Below, in pieces: positions 1,195 to 31,539 of a stretch of 64,000 bases of DNA. The position numbers and the translations under genes were made by a program. The stretch spans positions 1-64,000 of the forward strand of contig JAAOZP010000012.1 in assembly GCA_011605725.1 (NCBI GenBank), read 5' to 3'. The notes beneath the pieces were generated by a model. The model was not told the DNA's origin. It ran no database searches and saw only the letters and a program-made list of their open reading frames with translations. This DNA comes from Nitrososphaerota archaeon (GTDB lineage Archaea; Thermoproteota; EX4484-205; JAAOZP01). Position 1 is the first letter of the stretch; each line of letters starts with the position of its first letter.

Positions 1195-2535
1195 TCAGAG
1201 CCCGGTTTCCCTCTTGTAGACTCTCTCGACGAACGAGTCCCTCACAGGCTTGTAAACCTTGTTGAAAAACTTCTGCTGGTCGAGCAGAACATCCTGCGGA
1301 AACTCCTCAAGATACTGTAAAGCCCTTCTCCAGGCTTCCTCATACGGAACCACCTCGTTTATCCTTCTAACTATTTGCTCATCATAATCCCTTGGAGTCT
1401 GTTCAGCATTACCTATCATTAACCACCCGTCTTCCGACAAGTAGGCAGTCTCATTCCCCAGTTGGAAAACGTTTCTCTCCTCAGCCTGCTTAGAAGGCTT
1501 AACAACATCCCTCCGGCCGGAAGGCTTCTTGGCTTCAACCCCTCTTTGCTTAGCCCAAGCGTAGAAGATTGCCCTGTTCAAGCCGAATGACTTGGATTTC
1601 TCGATGTCTCTCGTTAAAAGGAAGCATCGCGCAGCCTGCAGCAGCGCCATAACTTGGAACCTTCCAAGCCTGGGCGTTTCCTCTCCACGGCTCATGCTGC
1701 CCGAAGGCATGGGTGCCACTCTTTTAAAGTATCCTCCGACTGTAGATAAAGCTTTTTCCGCAAGCTCATCCGCCTCTCCTTCTTCAAAATCCATGTAAAC
1801 CGTCCTATGCTTGAAGCTCTCCGGGTTGACCCATGAAAGATCGAAGACGTCAATATCATCCGGTTTGAAGCAGACACACGAATAGTCCAGTTCCCTGTGG
1901 AGAGATAGTGGAAGAGTGAAAACCCTCTTAAGATCCATCTTATTCTCGATCTTTGCGCCTTCAGCTAAACCCGTAAGCTTCGGCTTAACCATCCTAGTGA
2001 CATACTCGACTATTGCGAAGGCAGCGTCCAGAGGATGATGCTTTTTAAAAAGCTCTCTGGAAAAAGCTTCTTCAGAAACATGCACGTGACACCCCCGGCC
2101 GCTCCATTTAAGATATACTGACTTCACAACCCTCTCCCTCTCAAGCTCCTCAACTATCAGCCTGCAAACAGCCAGTGTTTCACGCCACCTTTCAACATCA
2201 TTATCCACGTCCCAAGTCGGGGTGGAACGGTAAATGTTGGAAACATCCTCCAGGTCCTCGCTCACCGAGAGCCTAACGTATTTATTGGCTGAACCGTAGA
2301 AAGACCTAGGTTTAGCAAACCAGAATCCTCTCAGCAGCCTATTTACATCACTCGAATCCTTGAATCTAAGCGGCGACCCGTCTCTACCATACCTTATGAA
2401 AACCCTTCTCTCTAAGCCGCCTTCAACAGCTATCCACCTGTCTCTCCCATAGTTGAAGAGCTCTCCTGCAACCCTTGGGTGAGAGTAATACTCGAAAACC
2501 CAATCCAGGTCTCTCTGGCGACTTGGCTTCGCCAT
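1195..2535 (-). CDS. Archaeo-eukaryotic primase-superfamily protein (PriS-like) with long C-terminal extension
   Basis: 446 residues. The N-terminal ~215 residues carry the marks of the AEP fold: a DVD metal-binding triad in TWDVDND (residues 108-114), the SGRGCHVH nucleotide-binding motif (145-152), and a basic LKRVFTLPLSLHRE stretch (202-215) that resembles the 'RLPGSLH' motif of archaeal primase small subunits. Residues ~290-446 form a helical, charged extension not found in standard PriS, which is about 350 residues long. It could be the replicative primase small subunit of a divergent lineage or an accessory primase-polymerase used in repair or end joining. No large subunit or Ku/ligase gene is near. 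A TATA-like sequence just upstream (about 2555-2563 on the minus strand) predicts a leaderless transcript starting at this ATG. Confidence 0.75.
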   Translation of the reverse strand: MAKPSRQRDLDWVFEYYSHPRVAGELFNYGRDRWIAVEGGLERRVFIRYGRDGSPLRFKDSSDVNRLLRGFWFAKPRSFYGSANKYVRLSVSEDLEDVSNIYRSTPTWDVDNDVERWRETLAVCRLIVEELERERVVKSVYLKWSGRGCHVHVSEEAFSRELFKKHHPLDAAFAIVEYVTRMVKPKLTGLAEGAKIENKMDLKRVFTLPLSLHRELDYSCVCFKPDDIDVFDLSWVNPESFKHRTVYMDFEEGEADELAEKALSTVGGYFKRVAPMPSGSMSRGEETPRLGRFQVMALLQAARCFLLTRDIEKSKSFGLNRAIFYAWAKQRGVEAKKPSGRRDVVKPSKQAEERNVFQLGNETAYLSEDGWLMIGNAEQTPRDYDEQIVRRINEVVPYEEAWRRALQYLEEFPQDVLLDQQKFFNKVYKPVRDSFVERVYKRETGL

Positions 2536-18682: not shown

Positions 18683-18898
18683 ATGAATCCGGATAGCGCT
18701 GGATTATGGCTAATCCTCGCATTCCTCTCCGCTTTCTTCGCGGCATCAGTCACGATATTCGGTAAAATAGGCTTAAAGACTGTTGACCCCACTGTGGCTG
18801 CAGGGGTTAGGGCAGTAATAATGGCTGTAACCATGATCGGAATAATAATCATTCTTGGAAAAAGCTCGCAGATAGCGGAGTTAACGCGCGCGCTATAA
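18683..18898 (+). pseudogene. EamA/DMT transporter, truncated at a GCGCGCGC tract
   Basis: 71 residues with two hydrophobic helices. LILAFLSAFFAASVTIFGK and DPTVAAGVRAVIMAV are typical of the first half of the short ~140-residue EamA (drug/metabolite transporter) proteins. The expected helices 3 and 4 are missing: after GKSSQIAELTR the frame runs into ACGCGCGCGCT at 18884-18894 and a stop. The missing part is not downstream. This is the leftmost case in the window of a gene cut at such a tract. Confidence 0.7.
18884..18894. repeat. GC-alternating palindromic tract 1 (ACGCGCGCGCT)
   Basis: Sits exactly at the truncation point of the EamA transporter and is followed by AT-rich non-coding DNA. 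Confidence 0.8.
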
Positions 18899-23780: not shown

Positions 23781-24022
23781 TATACTCTCCACCTCCTTAT
23801 CAATTGTATCAATACGTTACACTTGACGGTATAATTTTAATTTTTCGGTCTATGAGAAACGCTTCTTCACCCAGTTTAAACATGGATTACCGCGTATCCG
23901 TAGGGTTTGTAGTACGGGTAGAGGGGTTCCATTCTTCCCTGCCTGTTCTTCACAGCATCCTAGTAGTATATGCTGCCCATGATTTTTCCTGGGGGTGTTC
24001 CTCATACTTTTTCCCTCTTCCT

Positions 24023-24032
24023 AGCGCGCGTT
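24023..24032. repeat. GC-alternating tract (AGCGCGCGTT)
   Basis: In the promoter region of the VapBC operon, about 14 bases before the operator-like inverted repeat. One step away from the consensus AGCGCGCGCT. Confidence 0.6.
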
Positions 24033-24045
24033 AGAAGAAAAGTTT

Positions 24046-24068
24046 ATTACTACCAAATAGGTAGTAAT
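24046..24068. promoter_or_regulatory. Perfect 9-bp inverted repeat, likely VapB operator
   Basis: ATTACTACC, a 5-base AT spacer, then GGTAGTAAT: a perfect dyad placed 16 bases before the VapB start codon. Position and symmetry fit autoregulation by the VapB-VapC complex, as known for VapBC operons; binding by this VapB is inferred. Confidence 0.65.
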
Positions 24069-24083
24069 TCAATGGTGGTCATC

Positions 24084-24314
24084 ATGGGTAGCTATATAAC
24101 GGTTTCCACGAAAGTTAAGAAAGAAGTCGTGGAGAAAGCTCGGAGACTAGGAGTGAACATCTCCGAGGTTTTAAGAAGGACCCTTGAGGAGGAGGTGAGG
24201 AGGAGGGAGCTGGAGCATTTGGGGAATAGGCTGAACGAGCTGGACAGCGTCCTTGAAAAAATCGATGTGAAGGAAATTGTGAGGCTGATAAGGGAGGACA
24301 GGGAGAGCAGGTGA
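24084..24314 (+). CDS. VapB-type antitoxin
   Basis: 76 residues from the ATG at 24084, which is preceded by GGTGG; the frame is open upstream without a plausible start. SYITVSTKVKKEVVEKARRLG is the AbrB/RHH-type dimerisation strand and helix of archaeal VapB, then NISEVLRRTLEEEVRRRE and a charged tail that would wrap the toxin. Neutralises and co-represses with VapC encoded 6 bases downstream. A perfect inverted repeat lies directly upstream. Confidence 0.82.
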   Translation: MGSYITVSTKVKKEVVEKARRLGVNISEVLRRTLEEEVRRRELEHLGNRLNELDSVLEKIDVKEIVRLIREDRESR

Positions 24315-24320
24315 ATATTC

Positions 24321-24719
24321 TTGCCATACTTGTTCGACTCCTCCTCCCTGGTCTACGCTGTGAGGCTTAAGAGGATAGGTGTCTTAGCCGGGGGCTGCAT
24401 CCAGGGGTTAACGGTATATGAGGTGTTAAACGCCCTGTGGAGAGAAACTTATGTTTTAAGAAAAATGAGTAGAAAAGAGGCGGAGAGCCTGCTGGACGTG
24501 TTCATTCGACTATTAAGTTATCTAAAGATGCTTGACCCAAGGGGTTTAGAAAGCGAGGTGTTTAAGATAGCTGTTGAAACTGGTTTAACTGTGTACGATG
24601 CATCGTATCTTGCCTTAGCACATAGGGAGAAGCTTACTCTGGTTACGGAAGATGTTAAGCTGAGAAATGTAGCAAGCAGGATGATACGGGCAGTGAGCTT
24701 GGATGAGTTAACAGCATAA
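24321..24719 (+). CDS. VapC-type PIN-domain toxin
   Basis: 132 residues from a TTG 6 bases after vapB. PIN nuclease acids are visible: Asp in PYLFDSSSLVYA, Glu in TVYEVLNALW, Asp in TVYDASYLALA and the last Asp in LVTEDVKLRNV. VapC toxins cleave tRNA or rRNA when freed from VapB. The pair is complete and looks functional, unlike the PIN remnant at 29620-29942. Confidence 0.85.
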   Translation: MPYLFDSSSLVYAVRLKRIGVLAGGCIQGLTVYEVLNALWRETYVLRKMSRKEAESLLDVFIRLLSYLKMLDPRGLESEVFKIAVETGLTVYDASYLALAHREKLTLVTEDVKLRNVASRMIRAVSLDELTA

Positions 24720-24744
24720 ACCCATGTTTTTAACTTCAATCATT

Positions 24745-24754
24745 AGCGCGCGCT
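24745..24754. repeat. GC-alternating palindrome AGCGCGCGCT
   Basis: Exact copy of the consensus, immediately upstream of a TATA-like TTTAAATA that serves the gene at 24790. Here it lies in a promoter and not between shards. Confidence 0.8.
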
Positions 24755-24789
24755 TTAAAAGTTTAAATACTGGTACGTAGCTATTGGTT

Positions 24790-25119
24790 ATGCCAAAATT
24801 TGTAGCTGTCCACAAATGGACAAGAGAGACGAATATCGCATGCATCAAAGAGCTAATAATAGGCTTTACAGCCATGCTTAAGGGAGAGGCTCCTAAAGAC
24901 ATAATACTGCACTACACTTGGTCAAGGTTAGACGATCCCTATGGAGTCTTCTGCTGCTGGGAGGCGCCGAGCAAAGAAGCTCTGGTTAAGCTGTTCGAAA
25001 AATACTTGCCTACACTGTTGAAATACACTGAGTTTGTGCCAGTTTTACAGATGTATCCGCCAACCGTAGAGTACGAACTTAGCTTATTGCAAGCGATACG
25101 CGACATGTCTTCGAAGTAG
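24790..25119 (+). CDS. Small conserved protein, possibly DUF3303/dimeric alpha-beta barrel type
   Basis: 109 residues from the ATG at 24790; TTTAAATA at ~24763 predicts a leaderless start here. The sequence opens MPKFVAVHKW and has KDIILHYTW, GVFCCWEAPSKEALVKLFEK and EFVPVLQMYPP, the beta-alpha-beta pattern of small ferredoxin-fold proteins that form dimeric barrels. The match to DUF3303-like proteins is tentative. Intact gene inside the scar-rich region. Confidence 0.55.
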   Translation: MPKFVAVHKWTRETNIACIKELIIGFTAMLKGEAPKDIILHYTWSRLDDPYGVFCCWEAPSKEALVKLFEKYLPTLLKYTEFVPVLQMYPPTVEYELSLLQAIRDMSSK

Positions 25120-25182
25120 GCTTCAGGCTTAAGACTAAGCCACCCTTTTTTTATATTGGACTTAAAAGTTCAGATGGAGCAT

Positions 25183-25191
25183 GCGCGCGCT
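25183..25191. repeat. GC-alternating tract GCGCGCGCT
   Basis: Left border of the first shard in the 25.2-kb shard zone. Confidence 0.75.
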
Positions 25192-25261
25192 TTTAATGAC
25201 TATCCTACTACTTCTGCGACTGGAGCAGCCCCGGAAACATCTACTACCTCGACTTAACATT

Positions 25262-25271
25262 AGCGCGCGCT
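25262..25271. repeat. GC-alternating palindrome AGCGCGCGCT
   Basis: Exact copy; separates the first shard from the methyltransferase motif I shard. Confidence 0.8.
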
Positions 25272-25379
25272 CGAAATTGCAAGGGAGAATAATTCTAGAC
25301 GTTGGATATGGAACGGGACGATGGACATTTTGTTTAGATTCTAAAGGTTACGTAGCTATTGAATCAATTTTACACTTAA

Positions 25380-25389
25380 AGCGCGCGCA
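25380..25389. repeat. GC-alternating tract AGCGCGCGCA
   Basis: Right border of the methyltransferase shard; one base off consensus. Confidence 0.75.
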
Positions 25390-25413
25390 CTAGGAACGTT
25401 AGATTTTGAGAGA

Positions 25414-25423
25414 ACGCGCGCGA
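25414..25423. repeat. GC-alternating tract ACGCGCGCGA
   Basis: Starts the next fragment, 24 bases after the preceding tract. Confidence 0.7.
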
Positions 25424-25583
25424 TGTGGCATGTATCAGCAGGAGGATCGTAGGGGCATAGTCTGTACTTTTTATAATTGTAGCCGCCCTAATGTTAAGGT
25501 TTTTAGCACACTGGAAGGCGTAGACTGGGAAAGGAAGATAAGGCTTAAATCCTCTTTACCTGTTTACTTCTCTAGTGGTATAC

Positions 25584-25880
25584 TTGAAGAAGGTCAGTCT
25601 TTATATAGATGAGGAATTGTGGATGAATTTCAAGGAGAACGTTTTAAGGAAGCACGGGACCCTGAGAAAGTTGAGCAGCGAGGTCGAGGAATCGCTTCGA
25701 CACTCGCTTGTCTGCGAAGAGCTGTTACTCGGGTCTTTTAAGAAAATTGGGATCAATAGTGATGTTTCAGTTACTTCTGAGAAGATAAAGCGAAACAGGC
25801 CTAGGCTTCGAGGACCACCTTCTGAAATACTCATCCGGGAAATGAGGCGCGTGCTGAAAGCAAGATTAAAGAATTGTTAG
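25584..25880 (+). CDS. Orphan VapB-like antitoxin
   Basis: 98 residues from a TTG at 25584 (a GTG at 25575 is also in frame). KKVSLYIDEELWMNFKENVLRKHG and SSEVEESLRHSL match the ribbon-helix-helix N-terminus of one archaeal VapB family; the C-terminal half (PRLRGPPSEILIREMRRVLKARLK) is basic. No PIN toxin follows: the 145 bases downstream hold no reading frame I can place. It is either an orphan antitoxin or the survivor of a broken pair. Confidence 0.65.
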   Translation: MKKVSLYIDEELWMNFKENVLRKHGTLRKLSSEVEESLRHSLVCEELLLGSFKKIGINSDVSVTSEKIKRNRPRLRGPPSEILIREMRRVLKARLKNC

Positions 25881-26025
25881 AAAAATAGCGCTGCTGAAAG
25901 TTTAGAACCCATAGGGAAACAATATACGACGGGTTACTAGACTTGGGATGAATTTTAAAAGAATATTCAGAAGCTTAATTCATAAAGTGCCCTTTTGGTC
26001 TACGCGTGCAGGATCCTGGATTGTC

Positions 26026-26457
26026 TTAACGACTTTCTTCTGGTTTATCTCGAAGCCGTAGCACGCGCTTTGATATCTCATAGTCTTGGATTTCTGATGC
26101 TGATTGCGATATTAGTCTACTATGTAACTCTTTACTTCTCATAATCACGGGTTTGCCCTCCATTAGTATTTTTAGTCTCAGCTTAGGATTTAGATCCTGC
26201 AGTTGTGCCAGATCCACCTGAAAACCCAGTTCTAATTCTATTTCAGCCCCTAACTCTAAGAATTCCTCAAGCGTCAATGAAGGCACAGAGTAAACAGCTA
26301 TATCTATGTCCCTGAAAGCATTTCTCCTTATAAAACTTCCAAAAACATATGCTAGCTTAATTTCACCCTTCTTTTCGAGGATTTCTTCAAGCTTCTGTAA
26401 TGCTTCTGCTTTACCTTCCTCGCTCAACCTGTAATACTTAACTTTATCGTAATTCAT
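26026..26457 (-). CDS. MNT-type nucleotidyltransferase, antitoxin of a HEPN-MNT pair
   Basis: 143 residues. The minimal nucleotidyltransferase motif is complete: YVFGSFIRRNAFRDIDIAVY (GSx10DxD) with a third acidic residue in VDLAQL. In HEPN-MNT systems the MNT protein AMPylates the HEPN toxin to silence it. The gene overlaps its HEPN partner by 14 bases. The extreme C-terminus (about 26047-26069) is encoded by a stretch that includes AGCACGCGCT and whose first ~20 bases recur nearly unchanged at 5771-5792 in non-coding DNA. Confidence 0.85.
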   Translation of the reverse strand: MNYDKVKYYRLSEEGKAEALQKLEEILEKKGEIKLAYVFGSFIRRNAFRDIDIAVYSVPSLTLEEFLELGAEIELELGFQVDLAQLQDLNPKLRLKILMEGKPVIMRSKELHSRLISQSASEIQDYEISKRVLRLRDKPEESR

Positions 26458-26857
26458 ACTCGCTCTCCACGGCCCTCAGAAAATCCTTAATCCGTTGAAA
26501 ATCCTTCTTAGCAGACTCGTAGATTCTACGATCATCTATCACCCAATATCTATGAATAAGCAGGTTTCTTAATCCTATGATTTTGATGATATCCTCAGCC
26601 TGAGTTGTAATCCCGGATTTCTCTAAATATCTGACGCAGTCTCTATAGGATTCCGGCTCATAATTGAGGCCTTCCATGGTAATATGTAAACAGGCACTAC
26701 CAATAGCTTCAATCAGAACTATTATCTGATACCTTAAAGAATATTTCTCATCATTCGTTAAATTTTCATAGGGCTTTGAAACTATCCTCTCTATCTCTTT
26801 AATGCATTCTCGCGCTTCATCAATTCTACTTCTTAAGTAGGCTTTATTAATGACCAA
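26444..26857 (-). CDS. HEPN-domain RNase toxin (HepT-like)
   Basis: 137 residues, all helical. The HEPN catalytic signature Rx4-6H appears as LRNLLIHRYW near residue 97, including the Tyr that MNT partners AMPylate (RxxxxHxY-type motif). Cleaves RNA when not neutralised by the MNT protein encoded directly downstream with a 14-base overlap. Complete, probably active pair. Confidence 0.85.
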   Translation of the reverse strand: MVINKAYLRSRIDEARECIKEIERIVSKPYENLTNDEKYSLRYQIIVLIEAIGSACLHITMEGLNYEPESYRDCVRYLEKSGITTQAEDIIKIIGLRNLLIHRYWVIDDRRIYESAKKDFQRIKDFLRAVESEYELR

Positions 26858-27143
26858 GACTCCACTCCATTAAGTGCAGCCAACTCGTATATAACTCTTA
26901 TAACGCGCGCTTTCAAAGCCTGCTTTCGAATTAACCTTGACTAAAGCCAAGATAAAGGATAAAAACCATTGCGCGCTTACGCGCGCGGAAGATAACGACT
27001 TCGGCTATGAGCGTCCTCAGACATTTCATAACGGTTTCAATTTAGAGAATTTCGGCCGTAGCGCGCTGGATTCTCACAAATCATGAATCGACTGGAGATT
27101 TGAAGCAATTACTTACATGCTCTTAGATCCTGGAGTATCTGAT
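26858..27143. other. Intergenic stretch with several GCGCGC tracts
   Basis: No gene seen. Contains ACGCGCGCT (26903-26911), GCGCGC at 26971-26976 and 26981-26986, and AGCGCGCT at ~27060. The pieces between them are 20-80 bases long and not recognisable. Confidence 0.5.
26903..26911. repeat. GC-alternating tract ACGCGCGCT
   Basis: Upstream of the HEPN gene; one dinucleotide shorter than the consensus. Confidence 0.6.
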
Positions 27144-27908
27144 TTATCTCATGTAGGAAGCTATGAGCGTTATCCCCCTCTTCTTTGCTTCCTGCTCTGC
27201 CGAAGGGTGTACGTAGTAACCAAACATCAGCTTATACACGTTATTGGGAACAGTTCTCTTCACCTTTTCGGCTAATTCATCGAAGCCTTCCACATCGCTC
27301 GAATATATTCTGGATCTAGTTTCTCCCAGAATGATTATCTTCGCGCCTCCTCTGTTGCCCTCTCCGTACAGGTTAATCTCCAATTCCTCATTGTTGACCT
27401 TAATGAACTTTCTAGTTAAATTCTCCAATTCTATGCCCTCATGCCTGTAGAGCCATCCAGGTACAACAACCCTAGCTATGTCTTCGAGCCCGAATCCGAT
27501 TGTGTCCGATAGCCTGCCGACATGCCTGGAGAGTTCCTGTAGGGCTCCTTCAGTCCTCGCTTGGGCCTCAGCAAGCTTCTCAACAGCGTGCTCTAAACTA
27601 TCATGCCTCTCAGCAAGCTTCTGAACAGCACGATCTAAACTATCATGTCTTTCAGCAAGCTTCTGAACAACACGCTCAAGGCCATCATGCCTCTCAGCGA
27701 GCTTCTGAATAGCGCGCTCCAGGCTACCATGTCTCTCAGCAAGCTTCTGTATGGCCTCAGTAAGTCTAGCCTGCCCCTCTTCAAGTCTAGCCTGTCCGCT
27801 CCTAAGATCCTCAATGCCGAGTAAACCCACCACGGCATAGCGGAACTCCTCATCCTCCTTCAGCAATGTGAGCATCTTACGCTTGAAGTCGGCTGTAGTC
27901 CTAGCCAT
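27144..27908 (-). CDS. DUF3782-like coiled-coil protein with degenerate PD-(D/E)XK nuclease domain
   Basis: 254 residues. Residues ~50-120 are about five 14-residue repeats (KLAERHDSLERAIQ-like), encoded by 42-base near-identical DNA repeats at roughly 27560-27770, giving a long coiled coil. Residues ~150-254 match the restriction-fold domain of DUF3782 proteins, but the catalytic positions look changed: LEINLYG in place of EVDLY, and ILGETRSRI where GEVKSR is usual. This suggests loss of nuclease activity. These proteins are numerous in thermophilic archaea and of unknown role. Confidence 0.75.
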   Translation of the reverse strand: MARTTADFKRKMLTLLKEDEEFRYAVVGLLGIEDLRSGQARLEEGQARLTEAIQKLAERHGSLERAIQKLAERHDGLERVVQKLAERHDSLDRAVQKLAERHDSLEHAVEKLAEAQARTEGALQELSRHVGRLSDTIGFGLEDIARVVVPGWLYRHEGIELENLTRKFIKVNNEELEINLYGEGNRGGAKIIILGETRSRIYSSDVEGFDELAEKVKRTVPNNVYKLMFGYYVHPSAEQEAKKRGITLIASYMR

Positions 27909-28265
27909 TATACTACCAGTTAATTCCGGTTGGAATGCGGCTTATTAAATTTACGGATTACTGGAAACGCGGCTTAAGACATTCAACTGCGTTCGCGGTA
28001 CGCACTCAAGCGAAAGAATCTCTAGTGTCTCTCATCGAGAACTACTTTGCCGATATAGATTGGAATATACGTGCGCTGCTGTGTGATACAACTCTCGCAA
28101 TATTTCTGAATAAAAGATTTTCTACATTTCCACCATTTGACATGGGTGCTTAAAAATGCTTGATTAGAATCATATTTAGATGGAGGTTGTCCAACAAGCA
28201 TGGAAAAACCTTATTTTCAGCCTTCACCCATATTTTCCAGCTATGGTTAGGCTTGTTCCAACCCT

Positions 28266-28275
28266 AGCGCGCGCT
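28266..28275. repeat. GC-alternating palindrome AGCGCGCGCT
   Basis: Exact copy; left end of the mosaic reading frame. Confidence 0.8.
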
Positions 28276-28326
28276 TCGTAACAGTTGAGCATCCCTTTGA
28301 ACCACGGTTTTTCTTCCATTGACAGT

Positions 28327-28335
28327 ACGCGCGCT
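28327..28335. repeat. GC-alternating tract ACGCGCGCT
   Basis: Joins the unknown shard to the pyrimidine-dimer glycosylase shard. Confidence 0.75.
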
Positions 28336-28408
28336 TAAGAGATGGTTGAACTCGTATTTGATTTGTCCTCTGGTTACTGGTATTCTAGGCATGTTTGTGT
28401 TGAACGCT

Positions 28409-28418
28409 AGCACGCGCT
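28409..28418. repeat. GC-alternating tract AGCACGCGCT
   Basis: Joins the glycosylase shard to the archaeal ATPase N-terminal shard, cutting the ATPase just before its Walker A motif. Confidence 0.75.
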
Positions 28419-28548
28419 GGGCTTCCCCACTTTTAAAGAGCTTGTCTAAAGTTGAAAGCTCTTCTCTTCGATCCACAAATCTTACAATCATGATTGTAAG
28501 AATCATGAATCTACAATATACAAACGTTGCTAAAGACTTGCTGCAGCA

Positions 28549-28593
28549 CGAAAAAACACATGATTCCGATCCGGTTTCTTAACCTTTAAAAAA
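28549..28593. repeat. 45-base repeat, copy A
   Basis: Near-identical to 31441-31486 (core CATATGATTCCGAT, then GGTTTCTTA and CCTTTAAAAA). On the minus strand it looks like a promoter and start codon (TTTTTAAAGG then ATG). Ends close to a GCGCGCT tract, as does copy B. Confidence 0.7.
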
Positions 28594-28604
28594 ATGTCAT
28601 GATC

Positions 28605-28612
28605 CGCGCGCT
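28605..28612. repeat. GC-alternating tract CGCGCGCT
   Basis: Between repeat copy A and the 3' end of the NosD-like pseudogene. Confidence 0.6.
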
Positions 28613-28622
28613 TTCTTTCTGC

Positions 28623-29663
28623 TTACTTAAAATCCTCTTTAAACATGCAGGCGGAAAGTATTTCACCCGTAGCAGAGTCTGCGAAGATGTCTACGGCAAG
28701 GGCCATTATACGCTCCTCTCCAGGGTTAAGCAAGAGTATTGCCCTTACGCCTCCTACAGGCTTCCCCCCTGTCTTTCACTTCATCTATATCAATATTGTT
28801 TCTAAAGTCTGTGCCCTCGAGAAATATGTCTCCTATTCTAATGAACACCTTCTTAACCCTATTATCAACCCCTATCGGAATCCTGCCCTCAAACTTTTCC
28901 ATAGCTTTTGCCTTCGACACCGGGATTTCGTCTTCTAAAAACTTTCTTACTATGTTTCCGGGAATTTTGTTTTCACTCGATTTATCCATGAGAACGTCAT
29001 TATTCGACACATCATTTTCCTCGATAACGTTTTTCGAAGACTGGCGGAAGCAGACACCGGAATACCGATTATCTATTATCCTGTTTCTAGAAACAGTGTT
29101 GTTTAAAGATTTAAAAAAGTAAAGACCATGGCCGTTTTTAACACCGCTGTTTTCAGAAACCACATTATCTGAAGAATAATATAGGTCAACGCCATCGGCC
29201 GTATAGGCAATATGGTTCTTGAAAATCCAATTATTATTACTTTTCCACAGATAGATGCCACAGTAATTATTCTCGCTAATCTCGTTATCAGAAACAACAA
29301 TGTTTGAAGAATTGCTAATAAAACACCGAAGTCGAAATTTTTTATCTTCAGATCCCTAATCGTAACGTTCCTAACCTCTCGCAGGCGGAGTCCGAATCCT
29401 GCGTCCCCAGCCTTCTGATCCCCCTTACCCAGTAACGAATATCCGTTTCCATCTATCACCACATCGCTTTCTTGAATAGTGATCTTGCCGTGAATATCCT
29501 CAGTAAAAGTATAGGTGTTTCCAATTCTTTTCACGGGTATTGTTGACTCAAGTAAATCTCTAATCTTACCACCTTTAACATAAAACGTCGTTTTTTCATC
29601 CCGCCCAGCCTTCTCAAATAAGAGAAGGGCGGAGGAAGGCTTAGAGGAGAAGATAACTCCCAC
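28623..29663 (-). pseudogene. NosD-like parallel beta-helix protein with two frameshifts
   Basis: Pieces in three frames join into one protein: IHGKITIQESDVVIDGNG then VTIRDLKIKNFDFG; after a one-base shift near 29316-29322, NSSNIVVSDNE and many ~22-residue right-handed beta-helix repeats (NDVSNN, GLYFFKSLNNTVSRN). After a second shift in the six-C run near 28764, GGVRAILLLNPGEERIMALAVDIF runs to a stop at 28623. NosD repeats bind or cut carbohydrates. No signal peptide is seen: the N-terminus seems lost at ~29620, where an opposite-strand PIN fragment begins. Confidence 0.7.
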
Positions 29664-29942
29664 GATCTGCTTAGCCGAGGTCTATGCGAAAACCATCAAG
29701 GTGGAAAGCGAAAAGCTTGCTGAAAAACAAAGGAGGTTCATCAAGGAAAGAAGCATCATCCTTCACTGGATGAAGCGATCGCTATTGAATCCGCTAGGCT
29801 AGATGTGGTTATGAAGAAGAAGGCTAAGGGCTGGAGGCTAGCTGACTCAATAGTCTATTCAACAGGATTAGTTAAGAAGGCTAGGATAGTGACTGGTGAT
29901 GAACACTTCAAAAACCTGGAAAACGCGCTTTTTATCGGATGA
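29620..29942 (+). pseudogene. VapC PIN-toxin remnant, N-terminus missing and frameshifted
   Basis: Too broken for a simple reading frame. In frame 1 from ~29620: RAEEGLEEKITPTICLAEVYAK, which is the 'TPTIxLAEVY' strand of archaeal PIN proteins. After a one-base shift at about 29769: DEAIAIESARLDVVMKKK, GWRLADSIVYSTG and ARIVTGDEHFKNLENALFIG with a stop at 29940-29942. These are the second and third catalytic regions of VapC. The first ~35 residues with the first Asp are absent, and no antitoxin gene precedes it. Dead copy. Confidence 0.75.
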
Positions 29943-30187
29943 ACATTGCTAAACAGAAGTAGCGCGCGCTATTATTTATACACTCGACATGGAGCGTTTC
30001 GGCAAAATAAACTGGATAAAGGCGGTTAACCCTATTCCGGAGGATAAAATAAGGGAGCTACGCGTCTTCTTAAAGGGAAGCGTATAAACAATACCGGCGT
30101 CTAGGCTACGCTTTCACGGCTAGGCTGGTAACGCAGGAGGAGATGGGTGTTGTAGCCGGGGTTAGCCTCCTGCACAGCGTGCGCTAG
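29943..30187 (+). other. Short fragment after an exact AGCGCGCGCT
   Basis: Begins with the palindrome at 29961-29970 followed by a TATA-like TATTATTTATA and a 32-codon frame at 29989-30087 (MERFGKINWIKAVNPIPEDK, then a charged helix). The rest to 30187 is GC-richer with no frame I can place and ends near GCGTGCGCT at ~30176. It may be the start of a broken gene whose promoter is still visible. Confidence 0.4.
29961..29970. repeat. GC-alternating palindrome AGCGCGCGCT
   Basis: Exact copy, between the VapC remnant and a 32-codon gene start. Confidence 0.8.
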
Positions 30188-30622
30188 CTATTTCGATTTT
30201 TCCCATTCTTCTATTGGGCCTTCAGTAACGTAGAAGATCGGATGCTGCTGGATTATCTTCATTCTCCTTAGCCTAATGTATAGCTCTTCATCTCTTTCTG
30301 AAAGCTTCTTTAAAAGATGGTTGAACTCGTGTTTGATTTGTCCTCTGGTTACTGGTATTCTAGGTATGCTTGTGTCGAACGTTCTTATTTTTGCAAGGTC
30401 AAATTCGTAACTTCTCCTTTCCCCCTCCAAGTATATGTGGTAGAGATAGGTGCCTACGTATAGAATTGGGTCCGCAGTTCTTCTGAACCTGATTAGTTGC
30501 GGGTGATTCACGTATCTTTCCGTCTTCCCCTCTAAGACTTTTTGAGCTAGAAGCGCTTCCCTCCAGACAGCTACAAGCCCTTTGGCGTCGAGGTACTTTG
30601 GATGGATTGACCAAAGACGCAT
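30188..30622 (-). CDS. Pyrimidine-dimer DNA glycosylase-like protein (endonuclease V/Pyr_excise family)
   Basis: 144 residues. MRLWSIHPKYLDAKGLVAVWREALLAQKVL followed by NHPQLIRFR matches the family of T4 DenV-like pyrimidine-dimer glycosylases and their small archaeal/bacterial relatives; the N-terminal Met-Arg and Glu region needed for the Schiff-base chemistry are hard to place exactly. It would excise UV dimers or related lesions. Intact, while a ~75-base copy of its PRIPVTRGQIK region is embedded as a shard at 28336-28408 (about 90 percent alike by eye). Confidence 0.75.
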   Translation of the reverse strand: MRLWSIHPKYLDAKGLVAVWREALLAQKVLEGKTERYVNHPQLIRFRRTADPILYVGTYLYHIYLEGERRSYEFDLAKIRTFDTSIPRIPVTRGQIKHEFNHLLKKLSERDEELYIRLRRMKIIQQHPIFYVTEGPIEEWEKSK

Positions 30623-30686
30623 TTTACTGAACTTTTTCTAATAAGTATTTATTTAACTTTTCTGACTCCTTCTATTTGTTCAATTA

Positions 30687-30696
30687 AGCGCGCGCT
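30687..30696. repeat. GC-alternating palindrome AGCGCGCGCT
   Basis: Exact copy; left border of a ~56-base shard (30697-30752) that carries the archaeal ATPase N-terminus (IVRFVDQR on the minus strand), a second copy of the shard at 28431-28500. Confidence 0.8.
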
Positions 30697-30752
30697 GCTG
30701 TCTAAAGTTGAAACCTCGTCCTTTGATCCACAAATCTCACAATCAGCGCACT

Positions 30753-30762
30753 AGCGCGCGCT
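30753..30762. repeat. GC-alternating palindrome AGCGCGCGCT
   Basis: Exact copy; right border of the ATPase shard and left border of the MFS remnant. Confidence 0.8.
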
Positions 30763-31428
30763 TCACAAGCCTGTTCAGCGATGCAAGCCATGAGATGGCC
30801 ACCTCTATTCTAGAACAGTTCTTAACAACAGAATTGCATGGTTCAGCTGAAGTATTGGGCTTAATAGAGGGCTTGGCAGACTTCTCCTCAAGCTTCGTTA
30901 AGACGTATTCGGGCTGGCTCAGCGATAAATTGGGCAGGAGAAAACCTCTTGCAACACTAGGTTACACGCTTACAGGAATAGCGCGCGGCGCTTGCCGGCA
31001 GCGTAAGCGCATTCCTTTACATGCTGCTTAACGTTGGAGCAGCAGTTTTCGCCTATGTATTCGGCGCGTTAGGCGACCGATTTAGCAAAAGAAACCTGTT
31101 AGCACTAGGATACATAGTTTTCAGCATATACTGCATAGGCTCCATTCTAGCACCATCAAACATCTGGATTTACGCCTTCCTTTTCCTCTTAGCAGGTGTA
31201 GAAACAGGCGCCATAGACGCGACTGAAAGATCATACGCTGCTGAGCTGCTTCAGGAAAATAGAAGGGGAACAGGCTTCGGGTTGCTCAGCACGATCAACG
31301 GAATAGGAGACTTCACGTCAAGCGTCACCGCAGGAATATTATGGGTGTCGATCTCCACTAGCGCAGCTTTCGCATTTGGAGCAGTACTTGCAGTGGCAGC
31401 AACAGCAATCTTAATGATTCGCAAGTAA
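30763..31428 (+). pseudogene. MFS transporter with its middle deleted at a GCGCGCG tract
   Basis: The first piece (30763-30980) reads FTSLFSDASHEMATSILEQF, LGLIEGLADFSSSFVKTYSG and the MFS loop LSDKLGRRKPLATLGY, i.e. helices 1-3. At 30980-30989 comes AGCGCGCGGC and the frame changes. The second piece reads VSAFLYMLLNVGAAVFAYVFG, the second-half loop GALGDRFSKRN, then helices 9-12 to a normal stop. Helices ~4-7 (roughly 150-170 residues) are missing, and the extreme N-terminus is cut at the tract 30753-30762. Both pieces are from the same kind of transporter, in the same direction and order, so this is a deletion within one gene. Confidence 0.75.
30980..30989. repeat. GC-alternating tract AGCGCGCGGC at an internal deletion
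   Basis: Lies exactly at the junction between the two parts of the MFS transporter. Confidence 0.75.
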
Positions 31429-31433
31429 GCTTA

Positions 31434-31498
31434 AGCGTGCGCGAAAAACATATGATTCCGATTTGGTTTCTTAGCCTTTAAAAAGATATAGCGCGCAC
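31434..31498. repeat. 45-base repeat copy B, bounded by AGCGTGCGCG and AGCGCGCAC
   Basis: Copy B occupies 31441-31486 and matches 28549-28593 except for a few bases. GC-alternating tracts flank it on both sides (31434-31443 and 31490-31498), so a ~50-base unit is again boxed between two tracts. Confidence 0.7.
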
Positions 31499-31539
31499 AC
31501 ACACTATGTTTTTAAAGAACAATGTTAAGCAACTATCTC

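Follow-up and report, generated by a model that had tools for sequence, protein, structure and literature searches.

How did a transporter gene come to be split around a few alternating G and C bases? In the window, by which we mean the whole 64,000-nt stretch of DNA that was analyzed, an MFS gene lies in two parts, one matching the Pfam model MFS_1 (PF07690) with an E value of 6.6e-16 (C-terminal part) and the other with 1.2e-7 (N-terminal part), slightly short of the curated cutoff. The initial annotation, made from the sequence alone, took these to be halves of one transporter type in the correct order and strand. The comparison with relatives bears this out: both parts match MFS_1, and both align, in order and on the same strand, to the same two archaeal genes. 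The first, L168 from a Bathyarchaeota MAG, is an intact 435-codon orthologue (MFS_1 E value of 1.7e-42; amino acid identity of 87.5% to the N-terminal part and 74.5% to the C-terminal part); the second, L117 from genome G280, is nearly intact, carries its own frameshift, and shares 93% and 79% of amino acids with the two parts. The nearest named relatives of the broken gene are found in archaea (Nitrososphaeria, Bathyarchaeota). The suggested search for an intact orthologue thus succeeded with L168 and nearly so with G280, but no intact copy was found in the searched genomes of the same genus. Among these, G004 has the N-terminal part of the gene (L103, G004:C46:60985-61197), whose homology ends 10 bp before the window junction without a GC tract; the C-terminal part was not found in G004.

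At the DNA level, positions 30762-30980 correspond to 809-1027 of L117 and positions 30992-31436 to 1505-1949. Relative to G280, the left piece terminates in ...CTTACAGGAATA and the right piece opens with TTGCCGGCAGC; the full-length alignment puts 477 bp (G280) or 480 bp (L168) between them, where the window has 11 bp of G and C. The loss amounts to 159-160 codons (amino acids 75-234 of L168), in agreement with the 150-170 residues first estimated, and runs from within TM3 through TM7 by our reading of a hydropathy scan, in line with the proposed loss of helices 4-7. The two reading frames differ and meet within AGCGCGCGGCGC (30980-30991), so that the frame change does fall inside the tract; the halves do not come from different families, and no frame reads through the locus. 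The intact copies span the gap and have a GC tract at neither breakpoint, which upholds, for this locus, the central claim that a tract can stand in for DNA lost from within a gene. A plain in-place microhomology deletion was rejected because the breakpoints in the intact copies share no GCGC.

Homology to G280 and L168 starts at 30762, directly after another tract (30754-30761); thus, the 219-bp piece is bounded by tracts at both sides, and the gene is also truncated at its 5' end, which makes it a remnant rather than a gene with a single internal deletion. The loss had been placed exactly at the tract, and for the internal junction this is correct to the base, but the junction is not the sole cut, and the early picture missed both the 5' cut and the junctions that join captured fragments. 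Unlike its intact orthologue, the window copy has no full-length open frame with 12 helices: with the start absent, the internal codons lost, and the frame changed, it cannot encode a working 12-helix transporter.

Several other fragments share an island at 24-31 kb with the MFS remnant (Table 1). In the window, GCGCGC occurs 39 times versus 8.2 expected. The segment 30699-30745 repeats 28443-28490 at 90% identity, and 31444-31487 has its own counterpart at 28552-28595; the order of the two is kept, and tracts adjoin these copies too. Outside the island, the membrane-protein gene cut at 18885-18893 continues in sister species (ORF read in G004), a one-sided case. One gene of the island, 30188-30622 on the minus strand, belongs to the Pyr_excise family (pyrimidine dimer glycosylase) and has at least two broken copies beside tracts (28335-28408; L101 415-626).

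Table 1. Tracts, fragments, and gene parts in the window
Feature	Position	Strand	Remarks
Tract CGCGCGCGC	18885..18893	.	Cuts small membrane-protein gene (EamA-like by eye)
Tract-rich island	24024..30987	.	Of 19 alternating GC tracts of at least 7 nt in the window, 15 lie here
Two tracts (25183-25190, 25263-25270) around a 72-bp piece	25183..25270	.	25196-25255 matches G000:C6:552-609 (93%)
Three-piece mosaic bounded by tracts 28328-28334 and 28605-28611	28328..28611	.	Pieces recur at 30310-30381, 30699-30745, 31444-31487
Tract GCGCGCGC (within AAGCGCGCGCTG)	30688..30695	.	Left edge of 58-bp fragment
Short captured or left-over fragment	30696..30753	.	Related to 28443-28490; minus strand resembles start of ATPase-type ORF by eye
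Tract GCGCGCGC in CTAGCGCGCGCTTC	30754..30761	.	MFS homology begins on next base
N-terminal MFS fragment	30762..30980	+	219 bp; end-to-end match to G280, 85% DNA identity; first codons absent
Filler GCGCGCGGCGC	30981..30991	.	Stands for 477-480 bp of intact gene
C-terminal MFS fragment	30992..31436	+	TM8 to stop; stop codon 31426-31428; frame differs from N-terminal part
GTGCGCG, probable worn junction	31437..31443	.	Inferred; MFS homology stops, next repeated fragment starts
Repeated fragment	31444..31490	.	Recurs at 28552-28595 (89%)
Tract GCGCGCACACACAC	31491..31504	.	End of fragment 31444..31490

The MFS case is part of a genome-wide pattern. We compared the genome of the window (G000; 2.23 Mb in 20 contigs) with relatives using about 1.3 Mb of stretches from eight genomes of the genus; part of this sequence was chosen because it resembles tract-rich DNA, and the break counts below therefore apply to the sampled stretches and not to the whole genome. 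At five clear sites, the MFS gene and four others in G000 or its sister G004, both flanks align to an intact relative in which the filler is absent, and DNA has been lost; a sixth candidate (G000:C16, L017:2669) is loose. At G004:C12:141945-141954, GCGCGCGCTA stands in place of 688 bp that in G005 include most of a DUF6512 gene. At G000:C20:34046-34056, AGGCGCGCGCG replaces 232 bp that are present in G003, G004, G005, and G006 and that in G005, the one genome where the intact ORF was read, lie inside a 518-codon M20 peptidase ORF. The tract GCGCGCGCGCTA at G000:C14:11776-11787 takes the place of 1226 bp (G005) or 1271 bp (G004); the result is a fusion of a 12TM_1 membrane protein with the interior of a DUF6785 protein. 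Near 141718 of G004:C12, 27 bp including a tract replace 40 bp. The replacement of deleted DNA by a tract recurs independently of the MFS gene at G004:C12:141945, G000:C20:34046, and G000:C14:11776.

Other tracts bound fragments copied from elsewhere. At G000:C16:244-406 lie 163 bp from the interior of the gene that is intact at window positions 24784-25119 (99% identity), with a tract at each end, and the intact source lacks a tract at the positions that match the fragment ends. The next piece on C16 (212 bp) derives from a homologue of the Pyr_excise gene 30188-30622 and also has tracts at both ends. Smaller examples are window positions 25196-25255 and G000:C4:194878-194950.

Once a tract reaches 7-8 nt, it marks a joint, either the site of a DNA loss or the seam between fragments. 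Among 122 tracts of at least 8 nt, 39 have an alignable flank, and 37 of these sit at a homology break while two continue; most tracts, for lack of an alignable partner, do not show where they came from. At 600 random control sites, we counted 58 breaks and 236 continuous alignments (58/294; Fisher p ~8e-21 versus tracts), and five-nt GCGCG runs (n=579) behaved like random sites, with 63 breaks and 232 continuations (Fisher p ~7e-20 versus tracts). In a first scan, a homology ended no more than 12 bp from 20 of 111 tracts (one counted twice), where 1.8, or 5.9 with local shift of the tracts, were expected, and no tract of at least 7 nt lay inside an alignment (9.6 expected). The possibility that tracts are promoters, terminators, or other regulatory motifs was dropped because they lie at homology breaks and inside broken genes.

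Absent from the source, the GC filler that replaces deleted DNA favors one length and one cap. Across 606 kb of G000, clean (GC)n runs number 11506, 305, 32, 45, 12, and 1 at lengths of 2, 4, 6, 8, 10, and 12 nt, respectively, with a second peak at 8 nt. In the same 606 kb, GCGCGCGC occurs 105 times versus 2-3 expected under order-1 to order-3 Markov models; other dinucleotide runs, such as (CA)4 and (TA)4, are found 1-24 times, and the CG phase of the same runs 40 times. Read towards the run on either strand, the preceding base is A in 91% of cases and the next base outward is T in 53%, while positions beyond are at background; sister genomes show the same cap pattern. At several joints, the cap (A or TA) is also extra sequence. 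The filler also contains phase slips, as in GCGCGCGGCGC at the MFS joint and GCGCGCGCGGCGC on C6, and GCGCGCACACACAC is present as well. The word AGCGCGCGCT and its reversed control occur 88 and 2 times in G000, 32 and 1 in G004, 18 and 3 in G003, 6 and 1 in G006, and 3 and 1 in G005, and three other genomes of the genus have no copies of AGCGCGCGCT. Across 398 genomes of the phylum, the count is mostly 0-2, and an equal absolute count is seen only in G205, with 29 control hits there too. Two genomes of the same phylum (family f5) have an excess over the control, G395 (9 versus 0 in a 0.9-Mb genome) and G300 (10 versus 1), so the filler habit may have arisen more than once. Our literature searches for the motif or for an archaeal GC filler returned nothing direct and, as far as they show, a uniform self-complementary filler is undescribed.

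As a kind, the tracts belong with end-joining scars. Their probable origin is an end-joining route that works without Ku and adds a self-complementary A(GC)n tail to broken 3' ends. After a break, with some DNA lost or a stray piece picked up, the exposed 3' ends would each receive a short A(GC)n tail, mostly (GC)4. Such a tail is its own reverse complement, so any two tailed ends could anneal. Two tailed ends would pair over about 8 G-C pairs, and fill-in and ligation would leave (T)AGCGCGCGCT(A) at the joint. The joints are mostly pure G-C palindromes, which would be compatible with annealing over 2-4 or more G-C pairs, a step that leaves no direct trace in sequence. A bolder version is possible but tentative: every broken end may be given the same tail, which would make all ends mutually sticky, about 8 G-C pairs may be what holds at growth temperature, and the genome would keep a readable record of its breaks.

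We infer that tailing and annealing produce the filler, rather than the joining-in of a ready-made oligonucleotide, although a captured oligonucleotide would leave much the same trace as a de novo tail. End joining with a captured oligonucleotide, or with filler copied from a template (RNA or a preferred hairpin), is an unlikely alternative to template-free tailing, yet the best-placed one: a stereotyped TA(GC)4TA is easier to obtain from a template than by free addition, but the length variation, the phase slips, and a GCGCGC-ACACACAC tract suggest loose, repetitive synthesis. Slightly less likely still is a tiny palindromic mobile element, comparable to the GC clusters of yeast mitochondria, that inserts as a ready-made TAGCGCGCGCTA unit in nonessential DNA, with deletions around it following later. 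The 8-nt length peak, the fixed caps, and the palindromy would fit such an element, as would the scarcity of tracts in long ORFs (24 of 90, though long ORFs cover 84%), which is expected if insertions survive only in dispensable DNA. However, in every two-sided comparison the relative has extra DNA (40-1271 bp in the clear cases), plain insertions without target loss number zero, and insertion alone cannot make tract-bounded fragments copied from elsewhere. We regard as improbable that the tracts are preexisting recombination sites, with deletion or shuffling between two of them by a site-specific recombinase or by slippage or homology between GC repeats. Their palindromic core and dense clustering in rearranged islands would suit this explanation, but it is contradicted at four sites (the MFS gene, G004:C12:141945, G000:C20, and G000:C14), where the undeleted relatives have a GC tract at neither breakpoint, and neither a length range of 7-12 nt nor errors like the one in GCGCGCGGCGC fit it well. 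An assembly or library artefact is very improbable: the genomes are multi-contig drafts and the joints were read at the assembly level, but the same motif and caps recur in excess in several separate genomes of a single genus and are missing from others, tracts avoid long ORFs, and G003 and G005 have one tract in common, with a substitution, at a diverged locus.

Scars of tailed end joining can be set beside three known phenomena. In eukaryotic NHEJ N-additions and polymerase-theta end joining, non-templated bases replace lost DNA at joints, and their sequence varies. The tracts resemble such filler in standing in place of lost DNA, whereas here the sequence is mostly A(GC)4T, neither G000 nor 20 relatives yielded a match to Ku (PF02735; the control search was positive in Bacillus subtilis), and the PolX palm (PF14792) was not found in G000 by a search whose control was weakly sensitive. 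Mitochondrial GC clusters are longer mobile elements that insert, whereas the present tract marks DNA loss or joining and has no conserved sequence beyond the TA caps. The likeness to the GC clusters and palindromic repeats of yeast and fungal mitochondrial genomes (e.g., PMC4478555) lies in short GC-rich palindromes across dispensable DNA. The closest parallel in archaea is Prim-Pol-promoted microhomology-mediated end joining (pp-MMEJ) of Saccharolobus islandicus, which is likewise Ku-free and involves 3' terminal transfer, annealing over a few G-C pairs, and deletions and insertions at the joint (PMC12019639). It differs in that its reported indels are mostly 1-2 bp (PMC12019639), in contrast to an alternating palindromic filler of preferred length, and it is known from induced breaks and damage, whereas the present tracts are genome-wide scars.

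The enzyme is the least certain part of the tailing proposal. The most plausible known candidate may be the replicative primase PriSL, because the Saccharolobus enzyme carries out terminal transfer without a template, anneals ends that have 2-4 G-C pairs in common, and supports joining in the absence of Ku (PMC12019639). Its insertions, mostly 1-2 bp, were reported only after A or C (PMC12019639). It is not reported to make alternating GC tails. A universal primase activity alone does not explain a range from 88 to 0 copies within one genus. The window contains an ORF at 1195-2535 (minus strand, 446 aa) with archaeo-eukaryotic primase-like motifs by eye (WDVDND, SGRGCHVHV, FTLPLSLHR). We do not count it as evidence, since it has no Pfam match, a subthreshold NCBIfam PriS match (E=0.029), a low-confidence AlphaFold model (pLDDT 38), and an orthologue (~77%) in the tract-poor G005.

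For archaea that lack Ku, the way in which broken DNA is joined is still debated on the basis of a few cultured species. With a stereotyped filler, it would be possible for breaks and joins to be mapped directly in genome sequences, and the lineages that use this route would become visible. The finding also points to a defined, assayable activity, namely self-complementary GC tailing, and the scar pattern explains the build-up of gene fragments in islands of such genomes.

Besides fragments, the island holds two toxin-antitoxin-like pairs, a PIN-domain gene with a small upstream ORF (23970-24719) and a HepT-like/Polbeta nucleotidyltransferase pair (26026-26857). Rfam gave no match in the window. 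The ORF at 27144-27908 (minus strand) encodes a coiled coil and contains an internal direct repeat of ~84 bp at 27567-27749.
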